This document shows positions 46,624-49,617 of a stretch of DNA of 58,631 nucleotides, piece after piece. The stretch spans positions 5,193 through 63,823 of the forward strand of contig NZ_HG424442.1 of assembly GCF_000336385.2 (NCBI RefSeq), given 5' to 3'. This DNA comes from Lysobacter antibioticus HS124 (GTDB taxonomy: Bacteria; Pseudomonadota; Gammaproteobacteria; Xanthomonadales; Xanthomonadaceae). A program made the position numbers and the translations under genes. The notes beneath the pieces are model-generated. The model made no database searches and had not been told where the DNA came from. It saw only the letters and a list, made by a program, of their open reading frames with translations. How positions within the stretch are numbered: position 1 is the first letter of the stretch; every line of letters begins with the position of its first letter.

Positions 46624-48513
<1,890 letters not shown>

Positions 48514-48602
48514 CGCATCGTCGTCGTGGCTGCGGTCGTCGCCCGCGGACGACCCGGTCGCAATTTTAGGCCAGGCGCGCGGCCCGGGGCTTCACCCAGA
48601 GT

Positions 48603-48618
48603 TGGCACACTTCATGCT
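48603..48618 (+). promoter_or_regulatory. Sigma-54 (-24/-12) promoter
   Basis: TGGCAC at 48603-48608 and TGCT at 48615-48618, with the GG and GC elements at the required distance; only the first T of the -12 TTGC is changed (A). A preceding T gives TTGGCAC. No coding sequence covers it. It reads away from mnmG. Such a match in a gap is rare, so this is likely real; it needs an enhancer-binding activator, which is not in the window. Confidence 0.75.
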
Positions 48619-48628
48619 TGGGATAGAA

Positions 48629-48742
48629 GTGCACCTTGCGGGGCAGGCGCTAGACGCCGGCTGGAATTGGAACAGGGGCTGGCCAAGCGCTCGCGGGGGA
48701 AGCCGGGGGGCCGAATGTCGGGGGACATTCGGCCCCTTTTTT
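48629..48742 (+). ncRNA. Candidate sigma-54-dependent small RNA (about 114 nt)
   Basis: Bounded by the sigma-54 promoter and a very strong intrinsic terminator with no convincing gene between. Visible folds: GGCG/CGCC arms at 48646-48658 and the terminator stem at 48707-48736. The transcript would start near 48629. Known sigma-54-driven small RNAs elsewhere (Qrr in Vibrio, CrcZ in Pseudomonas, GlmY in enterobacteria) show this plan, but I see no sequence match to them. The target is unknown. Confidence 0.6.
48707..48742 (+). terminator. Strong intrinsic terminator of the candidate small RNA
   Basis: 13-bp perfect stem GGGGCCGAATGTC / GACATTCGGCCCC with GGGG loop, then TTTTTT. On the minus strand there is no T-run after the stem, so it works only in the plus direction. 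Confidence 0.92.
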
Positions 48743-48844
48743 ATTGCGCGTTTTTTGCGCGCGCGGCGCGCTCGCTGCGCCATCGCCGCCACTGCGAGGC
48801 CGCCGCCGCCGAGTCGCTCGCGACGCGCAAGTCCTTGAATCGCA

Positions 48845-48877
48845 TAAAGCAAAAGCGCACGCCGATGCGTGCGCTTT
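48845..48877 (-). terminator. Minus-strand intrinsic terminator
   Basis: Arms AAAGCGCACGC / GCGTGCGCTTT with a 4-nt loop (48852-48877); on the minus strand the stem ends in TTTTGCTTTATG. It would end the lipoprotein operon with a 3' untranslated part of about 240 nt. Confidence 0.6.
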
Positions 48878-49075
48878 GGCTGTGTCCCCGGCTTGCGGGG
48901 GAATGGGCGCCGACGCCTGACGGGGACGGAACAGGGGGGATCCGTGATTCCTCGCCAGGCGCCGACATAGAAGTCTTGCTTACCGAAAACGTCCAAATAC
49001 GACGTAAGCGGTCAGTAGCGGTAGATTGCGGTCACTTCGGCCTGAACGCAAGTGCGCACCGTTCCACTTTGCAGT

Positions 49076-49103
49076 GCCGGGGCGCACGACCGTGCACCCC
49101 GGC
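49076..49103 (-). terminator. Hairpin just after the Tyr/Gly lipoprotein gene
   Basis: 13-bp stem GCCGGGGTGCACG / CGTGCGCCCCGGC (one G-U pair on the minus strand) with a 2-nt loop, 11 bp after the stop at 49114. There is no T-run, so it may protect the 3' end or pause polymerase. Confidence 0.45.
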
Positions 49104-49113
49104 AGGGCTCCGT

Positions 49114-49617
49114 TCAGCGTTGGACCTCGCGCCAGGGCACGCCGCGCCGGCCGCTGGCGGGCGGGCTCGACGGCTGCGGCCGCGGCTGCGGGATGCTGCT
49201 CGGTTGCGGGATGCCGCTGGGGCCCGGGCCGCTCCAGCGCTGGCCGCGGTCCGTACGCGCGTCGCGCCACGGAATGCCGCGCGGATGGTCCGGCAGCGAC
49301 GGCCGGGTGGTCGGCGGGCGGTGCGGACGGTTCGGGTAGTAGTGGCGCGGATACGGCGACGGGTAATAGCCGTAGGGATAGCCATAACCGCCGTAACGGT
49401 AGGGATTGCCGTAGTAGCCGCCGTAGCGGTAGTACGAGCTGCCGTAGCCGTAGGGGTAATAGCCGTAGCCGTACGGCGCGCCGTAGTAGCGATAATCGAC
49501 GCTCGGGCGGCCGTAGTAATACGAACCGCCGCCGCTGCCGCCGCGCAGGGAATAGTCGGTGACGCAGCCCGCCAGCAGGGCGGTTGCGAGCAAGGGCAAT
49601 AGCAGTTTGCGAATCAT
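49114..49617 (-). CDS. Tyr/Gly-rich lipoprotein
   Basis: Protein of 167 residues with a clear lipoprotein signal (PLLATALLAGCVTDY, lipobox LAGC). The next about 70 residues are a low-complexity Tyr/Gly/Pro run (YYGAPYGYGYYPYGYG and similar), followed by a Pro/Arg-rich tail. Such sequences are found on surface lipoproteins and can phase-separate or bind polymers. No family recognised. Follows the 42-residue lipoprotein gene by 83 bp. Its ribosome site is in a hairpin. Confidence 0.8.
   Translation of the reverse strand: MIRKLLLPLLATALLAGCVTDYSLRGGSGGGSYYYGRPSVDYRYYGAPYGYGYYPYGYGSSYYRYGGYYGNPYRYGGYGYPYGYYPSPYPRHYYPNRPHRPPTTRPSLPDHPRGIPWRDARTDRGQRWSGPGPSGIPQPSSIPQPRPQPSSPPASGRRGVPWREVQR

Follow-up and report, generated by a model that had tools for sequence, protein, structure and literature searches.

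Between mnmG and the genes beyond it, a stretch of 58,631 nucleotides from Lysobacter antibioticus HS124 (hereafter, the window) carries what a preliminary description had proposed as a small RNA under a sigma-54 promoter. The locus raises the question of which RNA this is, under which control it is made, and on what it could act. The neighbour had been named correctly, as the adjacent divergent gene matches TIGR00136 (Table 1).

The identity of the RNA came from the Rfam search. RF02235 (asX1) was the sole family to match at the cut-offs in the whole window, at 48632-48742 on the plus strand, with 89.2 bits against a gathering score of 70 and with the full model covered (positions 1-115). This match rules out the unnamed RNA that had been considered possible: with a full-length match above the curated cut-off and no sequence difference, the RNA of the window is a member of the asX1 family. 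Its strand and size agree with the proposal, about 111-114 nt here for a claimed length of roughly 114 nt; the promoter box points to a start at 48629, and the Rfam match begins 3 nt further downstream. Qrr, CrcZ, and GlmY, which the description had cited as RNAs driven by sigma-54, are not homologues as far as Rfam shows: none of these families matched in the window at the cut-offs, which only asX1 reached, and none was present when the limit for 48400-49100 was relaxed to an E of 1, which gave five matches.

The asX1 RNA was reportedly first described by Schmidtke in 2012, in Xanthomonas campestris pv. vesicatoria 85-10. Its expression has been reported for X. campestris pv. raphani (PMC4652430), and in Xylella, where it is listed as RF02235, it is reported as present in cells and absent from vesicles (PMC12189769). 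The literature searched, which did not extend to the discovery paper of asX1, reports neither a function nor a promoter class for it, nor any sigma-54 control.

Table 1. Features of the asX1 locus in the window (positions counted from its first letter)
Feature	Position	Strand	Remark
mnmG (gidA), divergent neighbour of asX1	46624..48513	-	TIGR00136, 882 bits
Sigma-54 (-24/-12) promoter of asX1, TTGGCACACTTCATGC	48602..48617	+	Core invariant in 60/60 loci
asX1 small RNA (RF02235)	48629..48742	+	Matched by Rfam over 48632-48742; box implies start at 48629; fold, covariation
GGAACAGGGG, apical loop of asX1 second hairpin, complementary to P loop	48669..48678	+	
asX1 intrinsic terminator	48705..48742	+	Loop GGGG inside GTCGGGGGAC (48717-48726)
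Predicted transcript of convergent RNA P	48845..49016	-	Start inferred from promoter-like boxes, end from terminator
Terminator-like hairpin of P	48852..48877	-	11 pairs, 7 G-C; weak T tail
Conserved covarying hairpin of P (model R1)	48902..48973	-	
Invariant loop of P, GGATCCCCCCTGTTCC on minus strand	48922..48937	-	Placement approximate; complement GGAACAGGGG at 48928-48937 on +
-10-like CAATCT of P	49023..49028	-	
-35-like TTGCGT of P	49046..49051	-	17 nt from -10-like box

The structure of the RNA was evaluated in the window and across 60 asX1 loci, the best-scoring among the asX1 matches listed. With -60.5 kcal/mol (z = -3.48), the fold of the segment 48629-48742 was equalled by 0/200 shuffles. 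The RNAalifold consensus of 56 of the 60 loci (alignment A1, with the near copies L053, L055, L058, and L059 left out) contains 36 pairs, of which 23 show at least one change on both sides and three lie within the promoter and are hence meaningless. The conserved unpaired parts are GGAACAGGG in the loop of the second hairpin and GGGG in the loop of the terminator. The GGGG loop and the T tail of this terminator are as first described, while its stem consists of 15 pairs (9 G-C, 48705-48738) and not of 13 bp. At E <= 0.001, asX1 is present in 173 of 198 Xanthomonadaceae genomes, in 145 of them above the cut-off; in the order-wide sample, it was found in 18/121 genomes, all within Xanthomonadaceae.

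As regards the control of asX1, the preliminary description had pointed to a -24/-12 box with exact spacing, and this is what the sequence upstream of the RNA contains: TTGGCAC-N6-TGC, with GG at 48604-48605 and GC at 48616-48617. Counting the C as -12 sets +1 at 48629. The pattern TTGGCAN7TGC is expected 0.42 times per window and occurred at least once in 34/100 shuffles, so that a single box is weak evidence by itself. Promoter and terminator are conserved in relatives. In the 60 loci, which represent 38 genera and, being drawn from the best-scoring matches, exclude weak ones, the core of the box (TTGGCA...TGC, positions 2-6 and 14-16) is invariant and the spacer varies. T-GGCA and TGC stand at the exact spacing in 60/60 loci, with 11/11 scored positions in 48, ten in 11, and nine in one, and the distance from the end of the box to the Rfam start is 12 to 16 nt, mostly 13 or 14. 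Among the weak-scoring asX1 loci, a strict pattern recovered box and loop in 7/14. From low-scoring or negative genomes we took 22 loci anchored on mnmG, 12 of which were readable by script; by eye, the TTGGCA box with an asX1-like loop was seen in L145, L147, and L158, an altered box in L139 and L157, and none in L138, L141, L148, L149, L152, and L155, with L143 ambiguous.

A simple scan of 47800-49400 returned no sigma-70-like promoter. A dyad search in the 54/60 usable upstream regions found no conserved enhancer, only a repeat ascribed to mnmG codons. In two of the 60 loci (L070 and L099), a perfect palindrome of the CRP/Clp type (TGTGATGTACATCACA and TGTGATTCATATCACA) lies 68 nt upstream of the asX1 start, beside the box. 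The small RNA genes crcZ and crcY are mentioned in a review on sigma-54 in plant pathogens (PMC8657755). The RNA asX1 itself was already known; its promoter class appears not to have been.

The apical loop of the second asX1 hairpin opens the way to the third part of the question. Two copies of the motif GGAACAGGGG are present in the window (48669-48678 and 48928-48937), where 0.12 occurrences are expected and 0/100 shuffles contained two. An inverted repeat surrounds the second copy and is present in 59/60 loci, with 136 to 442 nt between the asX1 start and the motif. On the minus strand, this repeat forms a long hairpin with the loop GGAUCCCCCCUGUUCC, and 15/16 loop columns are invariant in 57 sequences (alignment A2, 57/59 loci, with L055 and L059 left out). 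Compensatory changes on both sides affect 18/21 pairs of the hairpin, and 94.8% of the cells are paired, a value reached in 0/500 shuffles and far from those of slid versions, which are much lower. G-U cells outnumber A-C cells 194 to 14, an excess that marks an RNA read from the minus strand. The plus-strand fold also has more G-U than A-C (78 vs 41), though it is far weaker; the alifold energy is -14.3 on the plus strand vs -32.6 on the minus strand, and we discarded the plus-strand reading. The minus strand folds better in 48/59 loci. Rfam returned no match to this element at E up to 1, neither in the stretch 48400-49100 of the window nor in six loci. Hereafter called P, it appears to be a second conserved structured RNA, apparently new, as predicted from the alignments. 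This RNA (48902-48973, minus strand), convergent with asX1 and complementary to it, was absent from the earlier reading of this DNA.

The predicted P transcript (49016-48845) has a z of -5.78, with 0/200 shuffles as good. Upstream of P, a promoter-like TTG[CA]...CAAnCTA with a spacing of 17-18 nt is found in 33/58 usable loci vs 0.35 in shuffles, the pattern having been written after viewing the same alignment in which it was counted; a CGTC...GAC motif is found in 53/58 loci, a count that has no control. Terminator-like hairpins follow P in only 17/59 loci, the window included, vs 1.5 in shuffles.

In the window, 159 nt separate asX1 from the P hairpin, which lies on the opposite strand. A minus-strand ORF of 134 aa (48592-48996) spans both RNAs and has no Pfam match. 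The name asX1 hints at a cis-antisense of a protein gene, and this candidate role was set aside given that the overlapping ORF is without a Pfam match. Further along, the ORF at 49114-49617 (minus strand) is convergent with asX1 and encodes a Gly/Tyr-rich, small lipoprotein-like product with no Pfam/NCBIfam match.

Then, we considered how widely the two RNAs occur together. With model R1, P was found in 185/198 Xanthomonadaceae genomes, with one match each except for two in G137; these counts include the genomes used to build R1, and the E-values of the model are rough. Order-wide, P was found in 49/121 genomes, 30 of them outside Xanthomonadaceae. In the survey of named records, many of the matches listed fell in unrelated taxa and were taken for chance. 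P adjoins asX1 in 60/60 loci, being convergent in 59 and tandem in L061, with the P motif upstream of asX1. The asX1-mnmG block of L061, and by coordinates alone that of G132, is inverted relative to P, so the RNAs are in tandem there and still neighbours.

Outside the family, we examined 20 of the 30 P loci, and the mnmG motif is close to P in 19/20. Between mnmG and P, a sigma-54-like box followed by a CAGGG loop is present in 18/20 loci (15 boxes with TGGCA, three with TGGCCC), so that an RNA resembling asX1 also exists where the Rfam model no longer detects it. Of the other two, L195 has GGAACAGGGG without the box, and L196 has neither. In L182, L183, and L192, the RNA gene of sigma-54 type between mnmG and P is much shortened; it comprises a TGGCCC box, a stretch of CAGGGGG, and a terminator. 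In these other families of the order, two more elements stand upstream of P, towards a gene resembling the 3' end of pepN: a palindrome resembling TGTGATGTGCATCACA, seen in L178, and a second plus-strand sigma-54-like box. They are found at about 1235-1265 in L178 (P on minus), with similar stretches in several of L179-L197.

The sigma-54 gene itself, rpoN, is present in the genome of the window (G000:C107) and in 27/30 genomes searched, so its co-occurrence with asX1 hardly discriminates. One genome (G034, 99% complete) is without rpoN, asX1, and P; in another (G080, 86% complete), both RNAs are present and rpoN was not found; the genus g10 has rpoN and neither of the two RNAs.

The invariant loop of P, GGAUCCCCCCUGUUCC, is complementary to the asX1 loop GGAACAGGGG. 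The longest perfect complementarity between the two RNAs sits in the asX1 loop in 55/60 loci and mostly measures 10 nt. Both loops are predicted to be accessible, with a mean unpaired probability of 0.72 for asX1 (54 loci) and 0.90 for P (59 loci). In one locus (L094), one loop pair with P is broken on the asX1 side. As controls, letter-shuffled P reaches at least 9 nt with asX1 in 84/1200 trials and at least 10 in 27, and a match of 9 nt or longer with P was also present in the 120 nt preceding asX1 in 6/60 loci. Outside the family, the complementary core shrinks to 6-8 nt, and the longest complementarity falls in the loop in no more than 5/20 loci (L182, L183, L189, L192, and L195). In L182 and L183, the complement moves register and extends to 11 nt, CAGGGGGAATC, within the much shortened RNA. 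The loop of P is almost invariant, so that covariation from loop to loop offers no test of the pairing.

A reader of these controls could suppose that each of the two loops serves targets of its own and that their complementarity is incidental. Both RNAs are G/C-rich and C-rich and G-rich loops match easily, as the 84/1200 trials with shuffled P indicate. We consider this improbable, given that the match runs from loop to loop in 55/60 loci, that the RNAs are neighbours in 60/60 and remain so through the L061 inversion, and that L182/L183 carry an 11-nt match in another register.

The C-rich loop of P recalls a known RNA of the same bacteria. The small RNA sX13 has C-rich loops by which it represses messengers that carry a G-rich motif close to their start codon, and it does so without needing Hfq (PMC3771888). 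Like sX13 (RF02232), P exposes a C run in an apical loop, and the sX13 loops in L125 also contain CCCCTG. Unlike sX13, P matches no Rfam family (in the window stretch and six loci, RF02232 gave no match with an E of 1 or less), has one conserved C-rich hairpin, and occupies a locus of its own next to mnmG; the sX13 gene is a separate one, present in the same genomes (27/30 searched). As a partner of asX1 in the place of P, sX13 was tried and rejected: the longest perfect complementarity is 9 nt in the genome of the window and 8 nt in L122, and it lies outside the asX1 loop. The CAGGGG of asX1 could in principle pair with both P and sX13, and a 6-nt CAGGGG/CCCCTG match between asX1 and sX13 is possible at the level of sequence.

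If P acted on messengers in the same way, these may carry GGAACAGGGG. In 14 genomes, there are 159 GGAACAGGGG sites vs 52 for the reversed control, of which about two in each genome belong to asX1 and P. Among the 109 of these 159 sites that were examined, with crude ORF calls and a motif that resembles a ribosome-binding site, no messenger target conserved across many genera was found, and the only recurring pairs of homologues were L168/L207, L202/L208, L246/L255, and L280/L290. In L218, L225, L251, L285, L286, and L296, the motif lies 10-18 nt before the ATG of an apparently exported protein, and these may be targets of P.

The same data bear on the direction of the interaction. The roles could be reversed, with asX1 as the regulator that targets messengers and P as a constitutive sponge that sigma-54 activation overrides. 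Complementarity and adjacency fit this arrangement equally, and asX1 has a second conserved G-rich loop, at the terminator; the wider distribution of P, as found by its model, favours neither direction. On the other hand, the messenger-targeting device known in Xanthomonadaceae uses C-rich and not G-rich loops, as described for sX13 (PMC3771888), and the excess of GGAACAGGGG sites over the reversed pattern (159 vs 52 in 14 genomes) is what would be expected if P has targets, an excess partly due to the resemblance to ribosome-binding sites. We therefore hold the reversed direction to be unlikely, while leaving it some weight.

A further alternative dispenses with pairing: the GGA loops of asX1 would bind and sequester RsmA/CsrA or Hfq, in the way of RsmZ or CrcZ, and the loop of P would be the by-product of an old inverted duplication. 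The conserved GGAACAGGG and GGGGGAC loops do contain GGA, and a sigma-54-driven decoy of Hfq-Crc is known in CrcZ/CrcY (PMC8657755). Against this, L087, L095, and L108 have a loop without GGA in which GAACAGGGG is kept, the RNA of L182/L183 retains only the complement to P, and the invariance of the P loop over 57 sequences would be left unexplained. We give such a protein decoy little credence.

The identity of asX1, the invariance of its sigma-54 box, the structure and strand of P, the adjacency of the two RNAs, and the complementarity of their loops can be read from the sequences themselves. As P looks built like sX13 and asX1 carries the complement of its loop under sigma-54, a decoy is the economical reading. 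We propose, with a probability of a little under 0.6, that P is a small RNA acting through a C-rich loop in the manner of sX13 and that asX1 is a sigma-54-driven decoy pairing with that loop. More in detail, asX1 would be transcribed by the sigma-54 RNA polymerase from the box at 48602-48617, and hence, in this proposal, made only when some enhancer-binding activator is on; this activator may be linked to nutrients or to surfaces. P would be made from the minus strand, from about 49016 to 48845, probably via a sigma-70-like promoter, and would expose the C-rich loop UCCCCCCUGU; in sX13, loops of this type pair with G-rich motifs close to the start of translation. The complement GGAACAGGGG would be presented by asX1 in its apical loop, together with GGGGGA at the terminator loop, and a kissing interaction of asX1 with the loop of P in the cell would take P away from its messenger targets. 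In this assignment, asX1 would be the decoy and P the effector.

Comparable arrangements exist among known sigma-54 systems. In enterobacteria, GlmY and GlmZ form a pair in which a sigma-54-driven small RNA frees or shields another small RNA, GlmY acting as a decoy of the protein RapZ and not pairing with GlmZ. The proposed asX1-P pair would share the logic of a sigma-54 RNA that frees or shields another, whereas GlmY does so via a protein decoy, and there is no sequence relation between the systems. The motifs of CrcZ/CrcY are CA-rich. The Pseudomonas CrcZ/CrcY resemble the proposed asX1 in being sigma-54-dependent decoy RNAs, and they decoy Hfq-Crc (PMC8657755); in asX1, by contrast, the loops are rich in G and a complementary RNA lies beside the gene.

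Compared with asX1 as published, two elements are added here that the literature found does not mention, the sigma-54 promoter and the partner RNA. The RNA has hitherto been an orphan in Rfam; its invariant sigma-54 box offers a candidate regulator and a candidate condition, and P would supply a specific partner and be a new Rfam family in its own right. If the proposal is true, a sigma-54-driven anti-small-RNA joins the known sigma-54 small RNAs, and the extreme conservation of the two loops is explained. For the order as a whole (Lysobacterales/Xanthomonadales), we regard the chances as evenly balanced that the convergent pair beside mnmG, a sigma-54-controlled anti-small-RNA (asX1 with its relatives) and a previously undescribed C-rich P, kept through divergence, register change, and inversion, constitutes a switch that would tie the translation of a set of messengers to sigma-54 activity.
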